Shown here: positions 2,558 to 41,640 of the stretch, one piece after another
Layout: the number at the start of each line of letters is the position of its first letter
Position numbering within the stretch: the first letter of the stretch is position 1
Assembly (NCBI GenBank): GCA_958295525.1
Contig: OY282355.1
Span: 1,277,504-1,341,503, forward strand
Direction: 5' to 3'
Length of the DNA: 64,000 bases
From: an uncultured Dehalococcoidia bacterium
GTDB lineage: Bacteria > Chloroflexota > Dehalococcoidia > Lucifugimonadales > Australimonadaceae
The notes under the pieces: model-generated
Seen by the model: only the letters and a program-made list of their open reading frames with translations
Told to the model about the DNA's origin: nothing
The model's database searches: none
Position numbers and translations under genes: made by a program

Positions 2558-3382
2558 TCAGCCCGATGCGTCGCCCTTCCCATCGCCGGAGCGCGAGGGC
2601 TTCCCCGCCTCCTCGCGCACGTTGTTCAGGTTGTTGATGATGATGGCGATGAAGAGGTTGAGCACGACGAACGTGGCGATGATCACGAAACTCACGAAAT
2701 AGAGCCACGCGAACGGGATTTCCGCGACCACCCGGTGCATCAGATTTCCCCAGTCGTCCAACGTCATCAATTGCAGCATAGACAGCGACGCGAGCCCCAG
2801 ACTTCCCCAATTCTCCGGGTCGGCCTCGTTGAAGAGGTAGTAGCCGGTGACCGAGTACACGTAGATGAGGATGCTCATCAGAATGATGATGTAGCCGACG
2901 CTCGGAACGGAGCGGAGGAGGGCGGTTACGATCAGCCGGAGCCCGCGCACCGACGAGATGAGGTGCAGCACGCGCAGCAGGCGCCCCACCCGCGCCGCTA
3001 TTGCGAACGAGCCCGTCACCGGAAGGAGCGACAAAAGGATGATGGTGAAATCGAAAACGTTCCACCAATCGCGGAAGTAGCGCAGAGGACGCGGCGCCCG
3101 CGCGGTCATCTTCAGCGCGGCCTCCAGAATGAACACGACGACGACGATCTGGTTGCCGAGCATCAGCCACGCGCCGTACCGCTCCTCCGCGTCGGGCGAC
3201 GTGCCCAAGCCGATCATCGTCGCCCCCGCGAGGATGACGGCGATGATGAAGTAATCGAACGCGCGCGCGCCGACTATGCGGCCCGCTATCTCCGGCAAAC
3301 GACGCATCCCGAAATCTCTCCTCTGCGCTTCTTGCTCCGCCGTGCCATTCTTCTTGCCCCGCCGGACCATCGAGCCTCGCAT
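2558..3382 (-). CDS. Voltage-gated cation channel, single six-TM domain
   Basis: This is a prokaryotic one-domain voltage-gated channel (ion transport protein, NaChBac/NavAb type) that would form a homotetramer in the inner membrane. In the 274-aa form, hydrophobic S1-S3 lie at about residues 43-122. An arginine-bearing S4 (GRLLRVLHLISSVRGLRL) follows at about 133-150, then S5, a pore loop and S6. The selectivity filter is TLDDWGN at about 207-213. Sodium channels of this family usually have TLESW, and the extra Asp residues match the filter of the engineered calcium channel CavAb. The ATG at 3380-3382 is chosen; a GTG at 3421 and an ATG at 3370 are also in frame. It is convergent with the upstream restriction pair, with only 23 bases between. 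Confidence 0.88.
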   Translation of the reverse strand: MRGSMVRRGKKNGTAEQEAQRRDFGMRRLPEIAGRIVGARAFDYFIIAVILAGATMIGLGTSPDAEERYGAWLMLGNQIVVVVFILEAALKMTARAPRPLRYFRDWWNVFDFTIILLSLLPVTGSFAIAARVGRLLRVLHLISSVRGLRLIVTALLRSVPSVGYIIILMSILIYVYSVTGYYLFNEADPENWGSLGLASLSMLQLMTLDDWGNLMHRVVAEIPFAWLYFVSFVIIATFVVLNLFIAIIINNLNNVREEAGKPSRSGDGKGDASG

Positions 3383-5980: not shown

Positions 5981-6089
5981 GGAACCTACTGGAAGCGCCG
6001 CCCGCGAAAGCGGGACCCCGCCGATGCGCCCGGGCAGGAGCGGCGATAGGATGGCGGCGAAGATAAGCGCGGCAGGCGGCGGGGCGGCC

Positions 6090-8345
6090 TCACTCGGAGC
6101 GCAGGCGGAACGCGCGGCGCAGCATCGCCCAGCGCAGCGACTCCCACGCCCGCTCCGCGTCGCGCAGCGCGCCGAGCGGGACGCGCCCCGGAGCGTAGCG
6201 GCGCAATTCGTAGGCGGCGGCGACTTGCCCGATCTCGCGGGCGCGCGACGGCGCCTCCGCCGCCAGCGCGTCCGCGTACTCCCGCGGCGTCTGCTGCGGG
6301 CGTTTCTGCACGCCGGCCGCCGCCCCCAGCCGCGCCATCTTGGCGAACAGTTCGTCGGCGCGCGGCAGCCTTCCCAACTTCCACCACCACTGCCGCCAGG
6401 CGGCCACCGGCGCGGCGGCGGCCAGCGCGGCGGCGATTCCCAGCAGGCCGATGACCCACGCGGGAATTTCGCGGCGCGGCGCGAAGTCGACCGCGAACCC
6501 GGCCTCATCCTCGTCCTCCGGGATCTCGCCGAATTCGATCTCCGGCTGCTCCGCGAGGACGGGCGGCGGGCCGAGTCCCTGCCCGCCGAACTCAATGGCG
6601 CTCGGCGGAGTCGGCTCGAACGGAATCCAGCCGTAGCCCGGGAAGTGCGCCTCCACCCAAGCGTGATAGTTGAGGCCGGTCACCTCGTATGCGCCGGACG
6701 CCGGATCGAAAGCGCCCGTCGCGTAGCCCAGCACGTAGCGGCTGGGGATTCCGGCGGCGCGCAGCAGCACAGCGGCGGCGGATGCGTGATAGTCGCAGTA
6801 GCCCTCCCGCGACTCGAACAGGAAGTGGTCAACGCCGTCCGCGCCCTCCGGCGGCGGCCCGATGTCCAGCCGGTACGGCACGCCGATCACGTAATCGCGG
6901 ACAGCGAGCGCGGCGTCGTAGGGATTCTCCGCGCCCTCCGTGATGCTGGCGGCGAGGCCGCGCACGCGACTGGGCAGCGTCTCCGGCAGTTGCAGATAGG
7001 CGTCCGTCCACGCGGGATACTCCTCTCCGGCGCGGCGCAACTGAAACGGCGAGGCGGTGGACTCCAGCCCCGTGCTGACGTAACTCAGATTGACGCGCGT
7101 CGGGAAGTACTCGCGCCCCTCGGAGAAGCGCGCCTGCATCGCGCCGGGGCCCGCGCCCTCCGCCGTCATCCCCTCGGCGGGGCGGTCGAACGCGGCGGGC
7201 AAGCCGCCCGTGAAGAGCGTGTCCGTCGCCGCCGCGACGCGGAAGGCGTGGGTTTGGCGCGCGCGGGAGATTCCTTCCGGCGCGGGCACGTCCTGAAACG
7301 GCGCATAGTCCGCCCCCGGCGCGGTCGCCCAGCCCTCGCCGGTGTAGACGGCGTAGGTTCGCGCGCGCCAATACGTCGGCGGGCCTTGCACGGTGAACAG
7401 CAACTCCTCGTAGAAATTCGGCTCGCCCTGGAAACGGGTGCGCTCCTCGAACGTGATGGTGTGGTAGTCGCGCCGCGCCGGAAGCGCGCTGAAGAGGCGG
7501 GCGAACTGCGCGCTCGCCGTCTGCGCCGCCCCGTCCAGGGCGCGGGCCGCCGCTCCAAGCGGCGCGGCGGACGGCGCGGGGAGAACCGCCGCGAACGCCG
7601 TGACCGTCAGCCCCAGCCCCAAGATCACGCCGGAGTGGGCGAGCGTCGAGCGGGAATCGAACGCCGCGCCCCGCGCCCGCCATCCGGCCATCCGCCGCGC
7701 CGCGCTCAGGTGAATCAGCAGCGCCGCCGACGCCGTCATAAACACCGCGAGCCGCAAAACGAGCCATCCCCCCAAGTGCGACAGCGCGAACGCCGTCATT
7801 ACGCCCCCCAGCAGAACCGTCGTCCATCCGTGCGCCCGCCGCAGCGCGAGCCACGCGCCGGAGACGGCGAATCCCCACGCGACGAGCGTGAGGAACATTG
7901 CGAACTCGACGAGCCCCGCGCGCGTCTCGTCCGTCGGAACGGCGGCGGCCCAATCCGCGAGGTCGGCGAAAGCGTTGGCCAGCCGCGCCGGAACGCCCGC
8001 CCCCTCCGCGACCGACGCTCCGGCGACAACCGCCAGCGCCAGCCCCGCGCCGGCGCCCGCGAGCGACGTCCGCAGCCCGCTCCAGCCGAGCCGGTTCATC
8101 GCGTAGCCCGACGCTCCGCCCAGCGCCGCGACGAGCAGCGGCGGCGGCATCCCCGGCGCCCAATTGCCTTGCTGCAGCGGCAGCGCGACGGAGAACAGCG
8201 CGAGGCTCAGCAGCGTCAGCGTCAGCCCGTCTCCGCCGACGAACCGCTCCCAGAGGAGGACGGCGCGGGCGCCCCGCGCTCCGGCGCCTCGCGTTCCGGC
8301 CCGGGATGTTTCGTGGCTGGGCGTTCCGGCGGCGGGCGCGGTCAT
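6090..8345 (-). CDS. TgpA-like membrane transglutaminase (DUF3488 + transglutaminase core)
   Basis: This 751-aa membrane protein has several hydrophobic segments in residues 28-265, then a large extracytoplasmic domain with a transglutaminase-like core. The triad is visible as Cys517 in REGYCDYHAS, His561 in NYHAWVEAH and an acidic residue at E577 (FEPTP, where FDPT is more usual). A further transmembrane segment follows, then a cytoplasmic tail. MoxR, DUF58 and TgpA genes commonly occur together; the set is thought to act in envelope protein processing or assembly. The start ATG (8343-8345) is the last of three ATGA stop/start overlaps created by a 68 bp tandem duplication; the upstream DUF58 gene ends in the first of them. 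Confidence 0.9.
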   Translation of the reverse strand: MTAPAAGTPSHETSRAGTRGAGARGARAVLLWERFVGGDGLTLTLLSLALFSVALPLQQGNWAPGMPPPLLVAALGGASGYAMNRLGWSGLRTSLAGAGAGLALAVVAGASVAEGAGVPARLANAFADLADWAAAVPTDETRAGLVEFAMFLTLVAWGFAVSGAWLALRRAHGWTTVLLGGVMTAFALSHLGGWLVLRLAVFMTASAALLIHLSAARRMAGWRARGAAFDSRSTLAHSGVILGLGLTVTAFAAVLPAPSAAPLGAAARALDGAAQTASAQFARLFSALPARRDYHTITFEERTRFQGEPNFYEELLFTVQGPPTYWRARTYAVYTGEGWATAPGADYAPFQDVPAPEGISRARQTHAFRVAAATDTLFTGGLPAAFDRPAEGMTAEGAGPGAMQARFSEGREYFPTRVNLSYVSTGLESTASPFQLRRAGEEYPAWTDAYLQLPETLPSRVRGLAASITEGAENPYDAALAVRDYVIGVPYRLDIGPPPEGADGVDHFLFESREGYCDYHASAAAVLLRAAGIPSRYVLGYATGAFDPASGAYEVTGLNYHAWVEAHFPGYGWIPFEPTPPSAIEFGGQGLGPPPVLAEQPEIEFGEIPEDEDEAGFAVDFAPRREIPAWVIGLLGIAAALAAAAPVAAWRQWWWKLGRLPRADELFAKMARLGAAAGVQKRPQQTPREYADALAAEAPSRAREIGQVAAAYELRRYAPGRVPLGALRDAERAWESLRWAMLRRAFRLRSE

Positions 8346-8413
8346 CGCGGGGCGGCCTGCAAGTCCGGCGCGGGCGCTCCGCGGTTGGGCGTTCCGGCGG
8401 CGGACGTAGTCAT
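8342..8413 (-). CDS. 23-codon mini reading frame created by tandem duplication (2)
   Basis: This is the second copy of the mini frame, reading MTTSAAGTPNRG and ending APDLQAAPR. It overlaps the first mini frame and the transglutaminase start by four bases each (ATGA). It would carry translational coupling from DUF58 on to the transglutaminase gene. Confidence 0.4.
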   Translation of the reverse strand: MTTSAAGTPNRGAPAPDLQAAPR

Positions 8414-8481
8414 CGCGGGGCGGCCTGCAAGTCCGGCGCGGGCGCTCCGCGGTTGGGCGTTCCTGCGGCGGGCGCGGTCAT
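8410..8481 (-). CDS. 23-codon mini reading frame created by tandem duplication (1)
   Basis: It begins at the ATG overlapping the DUF58 stop and ends at the TGA overlapping the next ATG. It reads MTAPAAGTPNRG then ends APDLQAAPR, that is, the transglutaminase N-terminus fused to the DUF58 C-terminus. Translation by termination-reinitiation is plausible; a function for the peptide is not implied. Confidence 0.4.
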   Translation of the reverse strand: MTAPAAGTPNRGAPAPDLQAAPR

Positions 8482-9728
8482 CGCGGGGCGGCCTGCAAGT
8501 CCGGCGCGGGCGCGGCCAGCCCCGGCGGAGCGGAGCGGTAGTCCAACCGCCTGCCGATCTCGTCGCCTTTGCGGATCACGTAGGCGTCGAGCCCTCCCGC
8601 GCTCATAGGCGGCGCGCCGCGGAAACTCCCCGCGTCCACGAGCACGGGCACGACCGCCGCGCCCGCGGCGCGCAATCTGTTGGCGGGCGGCGCGACGGCG
8701 GCGGGCGGCGACGCCGAGATCAGCACGACGCACGCCCCTGCGCTCAGCGCGCCCAGCGCCGCCTCCGACGCCGCGTCGGGGCCGGCGCCGGGGCCCGGCT
8801 CGATGAGCGCGAGCGCCTGAAAGACGCGCCCCAATTGCGCGACCCCAGTCGCGGGCTGAATCAAGACGCTCTCGCGGCCTGCGAGCGCTGCGCCAACCGT
8901 CCGCCCCGCGTCCAAAAAACGCTTGGCGACCGACGCGGCGACCGTCACGGCGTACTCCTCCGCGCTCTCCGCGCCTTCTCCCGCCTGCGCCTGCTCGTTC
9001 AGGTTGAGCGCGACCCACACCGCGTCGGCGGGGCCGGACGGCTCGCGGTCGAATTCCTTGACCATCAGCCTGCCGGTGTGGGCGGTCGCGGGCCAGTGCA
9101 CGCGGCTCACCGCGTCGGCGGACGTGTGCTCGCGCACGCCGGAGGCGATGGGGCTCGGGGTGAACGCGCGCCCGCGCATCACGCCCTCCGTCCATCCTTT
9201 GCCCGACGGCACGAAGAAGCCGGACAAGTCCACCGTGGCGGGATAGATCAGCGCGGTCTGCTTGCGCCCCAGCCGCATCGTTCTGCTGAACAGGCCGAAC
9301 GGGTCGCGGCTGGTGATCTCCAACTCGCCGAACGTGTAGACGCCGCGCCGCTCGCACCGGCGGGAGTCCGTCCATTCGGCTGCGCGGAACGGCCAGAGCG
9401 TCACGATCCGCCCGGAGCGTCCGAACGGCTCCGTGTCGTGCTGCGCCTCCAGCAGCAGTTTCGGCCACCAGTGCGTGTTGCGGAGGGTTACGCGCTCCTC
9501 CAACCGGTCGCCGACTTGCAGGTAGGCGGTGAGGCGCCGGACGCCGCCCTCGATGCGCCGCGCCGCGAGCACGCTCGCCAGGTAGCCCAGCAAGGGCACG
9601 GCGAGCATTCCGAGCGTCAGGCGGTAGTAGAGCGCGTTGCCTGTGGCGAGGGCGAGCGCGAGCAGCGCCAATCCCAACGCGAGCCACGCGGCGCTTCCGC
9701 TCGCCGCGATTCGGAGCGCGCGCGTCAT
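8478..9728 (-). CDS. DUF58 domain membrane protein
   Basis: This 416-aa protein has two hydrophobic segments near the N-terminus (about 12-50) and then a soluble DUF58 region. The hallmark stretch is RRCERRGVYTFGELEI, then SRDPFGLFSRT (about 127-152), and later REHTSADAVSRVHWPATAHTG. The C-terminal part resembles a von Willebrand-A-like fold. DUF58 proteins are encoded beside MoxR ATPases and TgpA-like transglutaminases, and all three are here in that order on the minus strand. About 490 bases of repeats separate it from moxR, so it may have its own promoter; a TGC-TAGCAT extended -10-like site lies upstream near 9785. The stop overlaps a mini-ORF start. Confidence 0.88.
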   Translation of the reverse strand: MTRALRIAASGSAAWLALGLALLALALATGNALYYRLTLGMLAVPLLGYLASVLAARRIEGGVRRLTAYLQVGDRLEERVTLRNTHWWPKLLLEAQHDTEPFGRSGRIVTLWPFRAAEWTDSRRCERRGVYTFGELEITSRDPFGLFSRTMRLGRKQTALIYPATVDLSGFFVPSGKGWTEGVMRGRAFTPSPIASGVREHTSADAVSRVHWPATAHTGRLMVKEFDREPSGPADAVWVALNLNEQAQAGEGAESAEEYAVTVAASVAKRFLDAGRTVGAALAGRESVLIQPATGVAQLGRVFQALALIEPGPGAGPDAASEAALGALSAGACVVLISASPPAAVAPPANRLRAAGAAVVPVLVDAGSFRGAPPMSAGGLDAYVIRKGDEIGRRLDYRSAPPGLAAPAPDLQAAPR

Positions 9729-9835
9729 CGCGCCGCCCCGCCGGGTTCCCGCTTGCCTGCCGCGTCCGCGCTCATAGCGGGAAATGCTAGCAGACGGCGG
9801 AAGAGGAGGGGGGAGGGGCGTGGATGCGCTCCCAG

Positions 9836-10159
9836 TAGGTTCCCGCTTTCGCGGGAATGACGGGGGAGGGGGCGGGATTCCCGCCTGCGCGGGAATGACG
9901 GCAGGGGGCGAGATTCCCGCCTACGCGGGAATGACGATGAGGGGGAGGGAGCGACGGAGGGTCCAGAGGGCGAGGGCGCGGCTGCCCGCCACGTCTGGGC
10001 TGCGGGATTCCCGCCTACGCGGGAATGACGATAGGGGGGAGGGGGGAGTACGGGGTGAGATTCCCGCCTACGCGGGAATGACGGGGGGGGGGCGGGATTC
10101 CCGCCTACGCGGGAATGACGGAGGAAGGGGGCGGGATTCCCGCCTACGCGGGAATGACG
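9836..10159. repeat. REP-like palindrome array (7 copies)
   Basis: Copies of GATTCCCGCC-TACGCGGGAATGACG type (plus-strand reading) lie near 9836, 9874, 9909, 10003, 10057, 10093 and 10132. The first is the AGTAGGTTCCCGC variant. G-rich spacers of 10-70 bases separate them. The array splits moxR from DUF58; the remaining bases to 10215 are low-complexity G-rich sequence with no gene. Confidence 0.92.
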
Positions 10160-10215
10160 GAAGGGGAGGGAGCGGGGAGGCAAGGGGGGCGGGAGGGGCG
10201 GGGGAGGAGGGGGGG

Positions 10216-11193
10216 TTAGGCGGCGGGGAGGGAGCCGGGGACGGGGGTTTGCTCCAGCGCTTCGGCGATGGCCTCCGCCGCCGTGGCGCCCTGGATCCGC
10301 GCCGCCGAGCCGAGGATGACGCGGTGCCCCAGCGCGGGATACGCCAGCGCCTTCACGTCGTCGGGCAGCGCGTGCTCGCGGTCGTCCAGAACGGCTTTGG
10401 CCTGCGCCAGCCGAAAGAGGGCGAGCGAGCCTCGCGGCGACGCGCCGAGGTACAGGCTGGGGTGGTTCCGCGTCGCCTCCGCGACGGCGACGATGTACTC
10501 CTTCACGTCGTCGGAGACGTGGACGCGGCGGACGGCGTCCTGCAGGGCGGCGAGGCCGCGCTCGTCAACGACGGGCTCCAGCAGGTCAATGGGATGGGCG
10601 TAGCGCTGCGCCTCCAGCATTTGGATCTCGCGCTCCTTGTCGGGGTAGCCCAAATGGAGGCGCGCGATGAACCTGTCCAACTCGGTTTCCGGCAGGGGGA
10701 AGGTGCCCTCGTACTCGATGGGGTTTTGCGTGGCCATGACGATGAACGGCTCCGGCATCGGGTGGGGGACGCCGTCGACTGTGACCTGCCGCTCCTCCAT
10801 CGCCTCGAGCAGCGCGGCTTGCGTTTTGGGGGATGCGCGGTTGATTTCGTCGGCGAGCACGACTTGGGCGACGATGGGGCCCTCGCGGTACTCGAACGCG
10901 CCGTCGCGCTGGTTGTAGACGGAGACGCCGGTGATGTCGGCGGGGAGGAGGTCGGGCGTGAACTGAATGCGGCGGAAGGAGCCGCCGATGGAGCGGGCGA
11001 TGGAGCGGGCGAGCATTGTCTTGCCGACGCCGGGGACGTCTTCGATGAGCAGGTGGCCGCGGCACATCAGCGCCATCACAGCGAGGCGCTGCTCCTCCTC
11101 TTTGCCGAGGATCACTGCGCCGAGGTTGGCGAGCAGCCGCTCCGCCGTCTCCCGGGCCTCGCGGAGCGTCAAGGTTCGTTCCGAAACCGCCAA
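10216..11193 (-). CDS. MoxR-family AAA ATPase
   Basis: This is a 325-aa AAA+ ATPase of the MoxR group. Walker A is DVPGVGKT (52-59), Walker B is [10 protein letters not shown] (111-120) and a sensor-1-type stretch is [17 protein letters not shown]. MoxR proteins are chaperone-like and work with the DUF58 and von Willebrand-A proteins encoded beside them. The frame stays open upstream through repeats, but the TTG at 11191-11193 is chosen: AAGGAGA sits four bases before it and homology begins at once. A perfect TATAAT lies at 11243-11248 on the same strand. Transcription would run moxR, repeat array, DUF58, transglutaminase. Confidence 0.93.
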
Positions 11194-11242
11194 GCCGTCT
11201 CCTTCCGCCGCGCCGACGTTCCGCCGCGCGCTCGCCGGGGCG

Positions 11243-11248
11243 ATTATA
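11243..11248 (-). promoter_or_regulatory. Candidate -10 element of moxR
   Basis: TATAAT on the minus strand lies 49 bases before the moxR TTG, in otherwise very GC-rich sequence. No convincing -35 box is visible at 16-18 bases. Confidence 0.45.
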
Positions 11249-11280
11249 GGCAAGGCGGGGCGGGCGGGGGAAGGGGGGCG

Positions 11281-11505
11281 AGATTCCCGCCTGCGCGGGA
11301 ATGACGGGGCAATGGGGGCGGGATTCCCGCCTGCGCGGGAATGACGGTAAAGGGGGGTGGGATTCCCGCCTACGCGGGAATGACGGGCCGATGGGGGAAC
11401 GAGGGGGGCGGCGCCTGCTAGCGCCGCATCATGGGGGCGAGATTCCCGCCTACGCGGGAATGACGGAGATGGGGGCGAGATTCCCGCCTGCGCGGGAATG
11501 ACGTG
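11281..11505. repeat. REP-like palindrome array (5 copies plus a decayed one)
   Basis: Copies lie near 11281, 11318, 11358, 11437 and 11477, and a decayed one near 11560. A copy of the second palindrome family (GACGATGCGC-TAC-GCGCATCGTC) sits at about 11526-11550 after TGGCGCGTGGGG. The gap 11194-11609 holds no gene apart from the moxR leader. Confidence 0.9.
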
Positions 11506-11609
11506 GCGCGTGGGGGGACTTGGAGACGATGCGCTACGCGCATCGTCAGGGGGGGCGAGGATTCGCGGCTGCGCGGGCAGGGCGGGGCAATGGGGGGCGA
11601 GGGGGGCGG

Positions 11610-11954
11610 TTACGTCGTTATAGAGGTCGCCTGCGCCGCAGGGGGCGCCAAATCCCGCAGGCCAATCTCCACTTCCACAAGCGCGGCTTTCGTCTCCGGC
11701 GTCGGCGGCGCTTTGCCCGCCTCGGCCAGAGCGAGAGCGTGGTGGTCCATCGCTTGCCGAACGGACATGCGCGGCTCGGGGATGGGGTCGCCGTCCTCTT
11801 GCATCCCTTCGATATGGAAGGCGGCCGCCTCGCGGATGTTTTCCTGAACTTCTTGCCACGTCGCGCCGACGCCAATGCAACCCGGCAAATCGGGCAAGTA
11901 GGCGGAGTAGTTGTTCGACGCTCGCTCGTAGACGACGGCGTAAGTCAACTTCAT
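11610..11954 (-). CDS. hicB: HicB-like antitoxin
   Basis: This 114-aa protein starts [20 protein letters not shown] and continues [31 protein letters not shown]. That is the degenerate RNase-H-like HicB fold with its Y-x-A-x-x-PDLPGC core. HicB neutralises the HicA RNase and usually autoregulates the operon; no clear ribbon-helix-helix or helix-turn-helix is evident after residue 70, so the regulatory part may be atypical. The ATG at 11952-11954 overlaps the hicA stop by four bases, giving the toxin-first order hicA-hicB. Confidence 0.85.
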
Positions 11955-12151
11955 CGCTCCTCCCGAAGCCCTGCCTGATGCAGGATGCTCAGCCAAGTCC
12001 CCGGCGCCACGTCCTCTCCAGGTTGACCGTGAATGGTCACTCTCCCCGGTTTCACCGGATGTTTGAACTGCCGGTGGCTCCCGCGCGTCCTCACCAGCCT
12101 CCAGCCGTCCCGTTCCACTAAACGGACGGCTTCCCTTACCTTATGCGTCAT
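11951..12151 (-). CDS. hicA: HicA-like mRNA interferase toxin
   Basis: This 66-aa protein has the compact double-stranded-RNA-binding-like fold of HicA. Recognisable parts are [24 protein letters not shown], with the catalytic His in GSHRQF, then [27 protein letters not shown]. It would cleave mRNA when free of HicB. The gene leads a two-gene minus-strand operon; a TATACT -10-like site lies at 12189-12194, about 38 bases upstream of the ATG. Confidence 0.9.
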
Positions 12152-30984: not shown

Positions 30985-31285
30985 GGCGAGATTCCCGCCT
31001 ACGCGGGAATGACGGGGCAAGGGGCGCTTGCGCGCCGACTGGATTCCCGCCTACGCGGGAATGACGGGGCATGGGGGCGCTTGCGCGCCGACTGGATTCC
31101 CGCCTACGCGGGAATGACGGGGCATGGGGGCGCTTGCGCGCCGACTGGATTCCCGCCTACGCGGGAATGACGTGGCAAGGGGCGCTTGCGCGCCGACTGG
31201 CTTCCTGCCTGCGCGGGAACGACGTGGCAAGGGCGCTTGCGCGCCGACTGGATTCCCGCGTAGGCGGGAATGACGGGACAGAGGG
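30985..31285. repeat. 53-bp tandem array of REP plus GCGCTTGCGCGCC word
   Basis: Units start at 31024, 31077, 31130, 31182 and 31233 (periods 53, 53, 52 and 51). Each unit has GCGCTTGCGCGCCGACTGG followed by a REP palindrome and GGGGCATGGGG-type filler. A lone REP precedes at about 30988. The fourth REP is diverged (TTCCTGCCTGCGC). No gene is seen here. Confidence 0.92.
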
Positions 31286-31312
31286 GCGTTACGCGCGACT
31301 TCGAGCGCCGCG

Positions 31313-39057: not shown

Positions 39058-39134
39058 AGGGATTGAGCGTATCGCAGAGCGGGGCTGTCGGTCAACGATG
39101 GGGGGCGTGGGGGCGAGAATGATGGGGCAAAGGG

Positions 39135-39580
39135 GCGGGGTTCCCGCCTACGCGGGAATGACGGGGCAAAGGGGGGCGAGATTCCCGCCTACGCGGGAAT
39201 GACGGGGCAAGGGGGTTCCCGCTTTCGCGGGAATGACGAGGCAAGGGGGGCGAGATTCCCGCCTACGCGGGAATGACGGGGCAGGAGGCGAGGTTCCCGC
39301 CTGCGCGGGAACGACGGGGCAAGGGGGGCGGGATTCCCGCCTACGCGGGAATGACGGGGCAGAGGGGGCGAGATTCCCGACTACGCGGGAACGACATGGC
39401 AAAGGGGCGGGGTTCCCGCCTACGCGGGAATGACGGGGCAAGGGAGGCGAGATTCCCGCCTACGCGGGAATGACGAACAAGGGGGGGAATGGACGGGGCA
39501 AGGGGGGGCAGGATTCCCGCCTACGCGGGAATGACGGGCATGGGGTGAGTTTCCAGTAGGTTCCCGCTTTCGCGGGAACG
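39135..39580. repeat. REP-like palindrome array (11 copies, about 40-bp spacing)
   Basis: Copies start near 39139, 39178, 39209, 39252, 39292, 39331, 39370, 39411, 39449, 39510 and 39560. Spacers are GGGGCAAGGGGGG-like filler, not unique sequence. Two copies are the TTCCCGCTTTCGCGGGAA variant. The array occupies the whole gap between guaA and the next gene. Confidence 0.93.
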
Positions 39581-41137: not shown

Positions 41138-41640
41138 CGGAGGCGAGGTTCCCGCCTACGCGGGAATGACGGGGCAGGGGGGCGAGGTTCTCGCCTACGC
41201 GGGCAGGGCGTGGCAAGGGGGCGGGGTTCCCGTCTACGCGGGAATTGACGGGACAGGGGGGCGAGGTTCCCGCCTACGCGGGAATGACAGGACAGGGGGG
41301 CGAGGTTCCCGCCTACGCGGGCAGGGCGTGGCAAGGGGGGTGGGATTCCCGCCTACGCGGGAAGACGGGCAAGGGGGGCGAGGTTCCCGCCTACGCGGGC
41401 AGGGCGGGGCAAGGGGGGCGAGGTTCCCGCCTACGCGGGAATGACGGACAAGGGGGGCGAGGTTCCCGCCTACGCGGGAATGACGGGGCAAGGGGGGCGA
41501 GGTTCCTGCCTACGCGGGAATGACGAACAAGGGGGCGAGATTCCCGCCTACGCGGGAATGATGGGGCAAGGGGGGGCGAGGTTCCCGCCTACGCGGAATG
41601 ACGGGGCAAGGGGGGCGGGATTCCCGCCCCTGCCTGCGCT
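41138..41640. repeat. REP-like palindrome array (about 13 copies, about 40-bp spacing)
   Basis: Copies start near 41143, 41185, 41226, 41262, 41302, 41343, 41382, 41422, 41460, 41500, 41540, 41580 and 41618. Several end GGGCAGGGCG instead of GGAATGACG, and others carry single-base changes. Filler between them is GGGGCAAGGGGGGCGAG-like. The gap 41069-41661 holds only this array. Confidence 0.93.

Follow-up and report, generated by a model that had tools for sequence, protein, structure and literature searches.

The ATGA overlap is the commonest spacing of co-directed genes, and strict coupling across it has been shown (Huber et al. 2019, PMC6728339; PMC10666635). Re-initiation drops steeply with distance in E. 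coli and Haloferax, a 38-nt gap abolishing it or cutting it by 80-90% in E. coli, and the last 15 nt of the upstream gene suffice for it (PMC10666635). Work on some reporter systems, as cited in PMC10666635, describes coupling over 73-850 nt. Short upstream ORFs proposed to deliver ribosomes downstream are described for iraD (PMC5574718) and for the axe-txe minigene (PMC8708949). Mycobacterial MIRUs, finally, are units of 40-100 bp found at 41 sites (PMC2734929); as PMC12548453 reports, citing Supply et al. 1997, each contains a short ORF in -4-nt coupling with the gene that follows, and this coupling is thought to permit insertion with little harm to expression.

The locus compared here with these systems lies in a window (the whole stretch of DNA analysed) of 64,000 nucleotides from an uncultured Dehalococcoidia bacterium, whose genome is a single contig of 2.51 Mb. 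Its features, in window coordinates, are the following.

10216..11880, minus strand: ORF for a MoxR-type AAA ATPase, upstream and co-directed (AAA_3, E 2.1e-62)
8478..9728, minus strand: DUF58 gene, 416 aa (ORF; PF01882, E 3.5e-11)
8318..8513, minus strand: tandem array of a 68-bp unit, 2.9 copies, over the DUF58 stop and the transglutaminase start (TRF, copy alignment)
8478..8481, minus strand: ATGA overlap 1, DUF58 stop TGA at 8480-8478 and mini-ORF 1 ATG at 8481-8479 (sequence)
8410..8481, minus strand: mini-ORF 1, 23 codons plus stop, MTAPAAGTPNRGAPAPDLQAAPR (ORF list)
8410..8413, minus strand: ATGA overlap 2, mini-ORF 1 stop and mini-ORF 2 start (sequence)
8342..8413, minus strand: mini-ORF 2, 23 codons plus stop, MTTSAAGTPNRGAPAPDLQAAPR (ORF list)
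8342..8345, minus strand: ATGA overlap 3, mini-ORF 2 stop and transglutaminase start (sequence)
6090..8345, minus strand: TgpA-like transglutaminase gene, 751 aa (Transglut_core, DUF4129, weak TgpA_N)
8268..8300, minus strand: in-frame tandem array, 15 bp in 2.2 copies, in the N-terminal tail of the transglutaminase (TRF)

The sequence-only reading had described a 68-bp unit present about three times over the DUF58 stop and the transglutaminase start, with 23 codons running to each overlapping TGA (68 = 3x23-1), in the order DUF58, 23-aa frame, 23-aa frame, transglutaminase, joined by three four-base overlaps. This description is borne out: TRF returns 2.9 copies on the minus strand, the ORFs 8481..8410 and 8413..8342 are present, and the order can be read off the sequence. 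The TRF array has period 68, 94% matches, 0 indels and a score of 364, its third unit being partial (about 60 of 68 bp). Each unit holds one ATGA, the stop/start overlap of the two genes lying inside it. The longest exact self-match in this segment at shifts of 20-200 is 55 bp, whereas 200 simulated first-order Markov runs reached 16 bp at most; the repeat is thus far beyond chance. Since 68 bp is 2 mod 3, the ATG of each copy reads into the TGA of the next, and the chain is automatic.

The first 12 residues of the mini-ORFs, with N-terminal MTAPAAGTPNRG, are in the transglutaminase reading frame, and the last 11, APAPDLQAAPR, are the C-terminal residues of DUF58, which are encoded in the first repeat unit. 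This fusion make-up is expected from a unit copied across the junction. A Pfam search with both mini-ORF peptides gave no match, and we discarded the idea that they are a known peptide. The RNA folding energy across the array is no better than that of shuffles (z 0.15), Rfam has no match in window 6000-12000, and no Shine-Dalgarno-like motif is seen by eye before the ATGs of the chain.

The neighbourhood of MoxR, DUF58 and transglutaminase is a familiar one. As the AAA_3 domain begins only at residue 276 of the MoxR ORF, translation of this gene probably starts far inside the ORF. The gap of about 490 bp between MoxR and DUF58 (window 9729-10215) consists mostly of palindromic repeat arrays, and two small ORFs adjoining the MoxR gene (11610-12151, minus strand) resemble HicA/HicB toxin-antitoxin genes by appearance. 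Orthologues in four congeners share 71-72% identity with DUF58 and 60-62% with the transglutaminase. Homology in the latter begins only at residue 17-24, which makes its repeat-encoded part a variable tail; on comparison of the N-termini, the N-terminal tail with the 15-bp array exceeds that of the congeners by about 15 residues. From the in-frame TGA at -135 to codon 65, the ATG of overlap 3 is the only ATG, GTG or TTG in the transglutaminase frame, and this third ATGA is therefore the expected transglutaminase start.

The close relatives are SAR202/Dehalococcoidia MAGs, from which 29 loci were fetched, 28 with a readable junction and one, cut at a contig end, left out. Comparing the junction in related genomes, as had been proposed, we find a single stop/start overlap (ATGA, GTGA or TTGA) in 24 of the 28; the next start lies 2 to 23 nt on in three, and one is ambiguous. 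The 68-bp repeat is absent from all 28. In the host genome, 31 of 595 same-strand pairs by rough gene calls have the -4 spacing, a low estimate since starts were taken as the longest ORF. The overlap being so widespread and the repeat so restricted, the comparison indicates that the single overlap is ancestral and conserved and that the triplication is lineage-specific, and the conserved NTGA makes ancestral coupling credible.

A search of the whole 2.5-Mb genome with two units as query did not find the unit elsewhere, off-locus matches being short with E 0.01 or worse, and in DNA searches the congeners share the flanks and lack the array. We therefore regard the array as a local duplication and reject a mobile element, the unit being confined to one locus.

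This bears on the likeness to MIRUs. Both are tandem units of roughly 40-100 bp (here 68 bp in 2.9 copies) at the start of a gene in an operon, and both carry a short ORF overlapping the next gene at -4 nt, here the 23-codon ORFs with their ATGA overlaps. MIRUs, however, are scattered across about 41 sites and apparently mobile, whereas the 68-bp unit occurs at this junction only and is built from the ends of the two genes themselves. The array would work much as MIRUs do but lacks the dispersal that defines them. With known termination-reinitiation pairs it shares the ATGA-type overlap, conserved as NTGA in relatives, but such pairs normally have one overlap, whereas this locus, known from its sequence, has three in series and two mini-ORFs. 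With iraD and axe-txe it shares a short ORF proposed to bring ribosomes to the next start or to affect it; in those systems a single ORF, leader or internal, has been studied as a regulator, whereas the mini-ORFs here come from a junction duplication with no known regulator.

We examined how far the frame of a duplication matters by removing two units, which gives the inferred ancestral junction, and enumerating every tandem duplication of 20-120 bp that contains the ATGA. Periods of remainder 2 give a chain in 2255 of 2261 placements, with two or three copies alike. With remainder 0, the transglutaminase is extended directly and in frame at its N-terminus (2288/2295). Of the 2211 placements with remainder 1, 2151 have a broken path at two copies, but 2207 have a path again at three copies, as two units sum to remainder 2. 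The claim that coupling is preserved only for the observed remainder does not hold, since remainder 0 extends the transglutaminase and remainder 1 re-forms the path at three copies; what sets remainder 2 apart is only that, however many copies there are, neither end protein changes. Given a duplicated ATGA junction, the prior of a chain is about 1 in 3, and once the repeat is given the chain is hardly surprising. The same enumeration on the junctions of seven relatives gives a broadly similar pattern, with exceptions: in one (L002) remainder 0 often runs into a stop, and in another (L003) two copies with remainder 1 are usually enough for a path.

To compare period remainders at other junctions, we surveyed 2.06 Mb, comprising 1.26 Mb (about half) of the host genome and 400 kb each from congeners and from relatives at the order level. 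No second junction duplication was found among the 966 same-strand pairs sampled. Two arrays of remainder 2 near gene boundaries, of 32 bp (segment L075) and 362 bp (segment L088), proved on inspection not to duplicate an NTGA junction. The latter, at L088:16488-17219, is a direct duplication (92%) with a small antitoxin-like gene and adjoins PIN-domain-like toxin genes by appearance. The host sample contains 230 tandem arrays, and the density of arrays of period 20 or more is 182 per Mb, against 58 per Mb in the sampled congener contigs, a figure which may be under-reported in these draft assemblies. The lineage is thus repeat-prone, at about three times the congener density. Inside host genes, 66 of 70 non-palindromic arrays have remainder 0, so frame matters there, as expected.

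A palindromic repeat, TTCCCGCCTACGCGGGAATGACG, is also dispersed in the window and forms many arrays there, for example at 39113-39486, 41142-41628, 30990-31300, 11267-11503 and 9840-10161. Each copy ends in AATGAC and hence yields ATGA stop/start overlaps of every spacing, and most tandem ATGA sites from our first scan appear to be dispersed GGGAATGACG repeats. The core of the palindrome looks, we presume, like the Neisseria dRS3 pattern ATTCCC-N8-GGGAAT.

The reading we favour, with a probability of about 0.62, is that an ancestral ATGA junction was triplicated and that the resulting mini-ORFs are passed through by ribosomes, which they relay by termination-reinitiation. A local tandem triplication in a repeat-prone SAR202-type Chloroflexota lineage struck the ancestral overlap, as the comparison with relatives shows, and each extra copy, with an ATG in the transglutaminase frame running into the next TGA in the DUF58 frame, produced one of the two 23-codon ORFs seen in the sequence. 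After terminating on DUF58, ribosomes would then start again at one ATGA after the other and so arrive, perhaps with some loss of yield, at the transglutaminase start 136 nt downstream. The mini-ORF peptides would have no function of their own, and the frame-compatible period would be due to chance (about 1 in 3), perhaps together with the loss of variants that broke coupling. Given the loss or reduction of re-initiation that a 38-nt gap causes in E. coli, such a relay would keep coupled a start that lies 136 nt downstream; if the coupling over 73-850 nt seen in reporter systems applied here, the mini-ORFs would not be needed.

It is possible, although on balance unlikely, that the array is neutral debris with no effect on expression, the transglutaminase initiating at its own ATG or being reached by long-range scanning. 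A chain that forms automatically at 2 mod 3 and mini-ORFs with no sign of constraint fit this account, as does a similar chain in segment L067 (genome 480001-500000) at a junction that was ancestrally uncoupled.

L067:2617-2994 (genome 482617-482994): 77-bp unit, 4.9 copies, over the end of a cupin-domain gene

This array forms three 26-codon ORFs linked by GTGA, followed by a 50-codon frame that results from one spacing of 76 and ends as ATGA on the start of the next ORF, at 3039. That ORF has its own strong AAGAGGAGG motif. In congeners, a terminator-like hairpin follows the cupin gene, and the downstream ORF was not found beside it. With the junction uncoupled in relatives, this case indicates that chains can arise with no ancestral coupling to preserve, and a chain alone does not imply use. 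Against the neutral account at the DUF58 junction stand the strong conservation of the overlap in relatives, the transglutaminase start with no Shine-Dalgarno-like motif before it, and the loss of coupling in native pairs at tens of nucleotides (PMC10666635). The missing motif also tells against the relay, whose re-initiation may be strong or weak.

An arrangement under selection, in which unit number adjusts the ratio between the two proteins or the 2 mod 3 period is actively kept, is improbable. The conserved coupling would offer something to select on, and the array has no indel; yet it is a single locus with low power, confined to one lineage, and a path would likewise remain with remainder 0, or with remainder 1 at three copies. 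The unit cores show 3 to 5 pairwise differences. Of the 198 point changes possible in each mini-ORF, only 5 introduce a stop, and a random set of four changes would leave the chain open about 90% of the time. We reject selection on the mini-ORFs as a claim, as one locus with so few substitutions cannot show it, and the selected preservation raised by the sequence-only reading is unsupported for the same reasons. A more specific form, a copy-number rheostat in which each 68-bp unit is one termination-reinitiation step that lowers the transglutaminase:DUF58 ratio, is highly improbable, and we give as little credence to the idea that slippage in unit number would tune the stoichiometry while leaving both proteins unaltered. 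That the true genome has one unit and the array is an assembly artefact is barely credible: the species is represented by one assembly, but the copy alignment shows substitutions private to individual units, which argues against an artefact, and this single 2.5-Mb contig contains many other tandem arrays.

For the biology of the DUF58/transglutaminase operon, the chain is minor. Its interest lies in a simple rule for repeats at overlapping junctions: a period of 2 mod 3 spares both proteins, one of 0 mod 3 lengthens the second, and one of 1 mod 3 usually interrupts the chain with two copies but not with three. If the relay works, a co-translated gene pair can withstand more than 100 bp of inserted DNA at its overlap, and this locus would be a natural construct for counting the serial termination-reinitiation steps that a ribosome survives.
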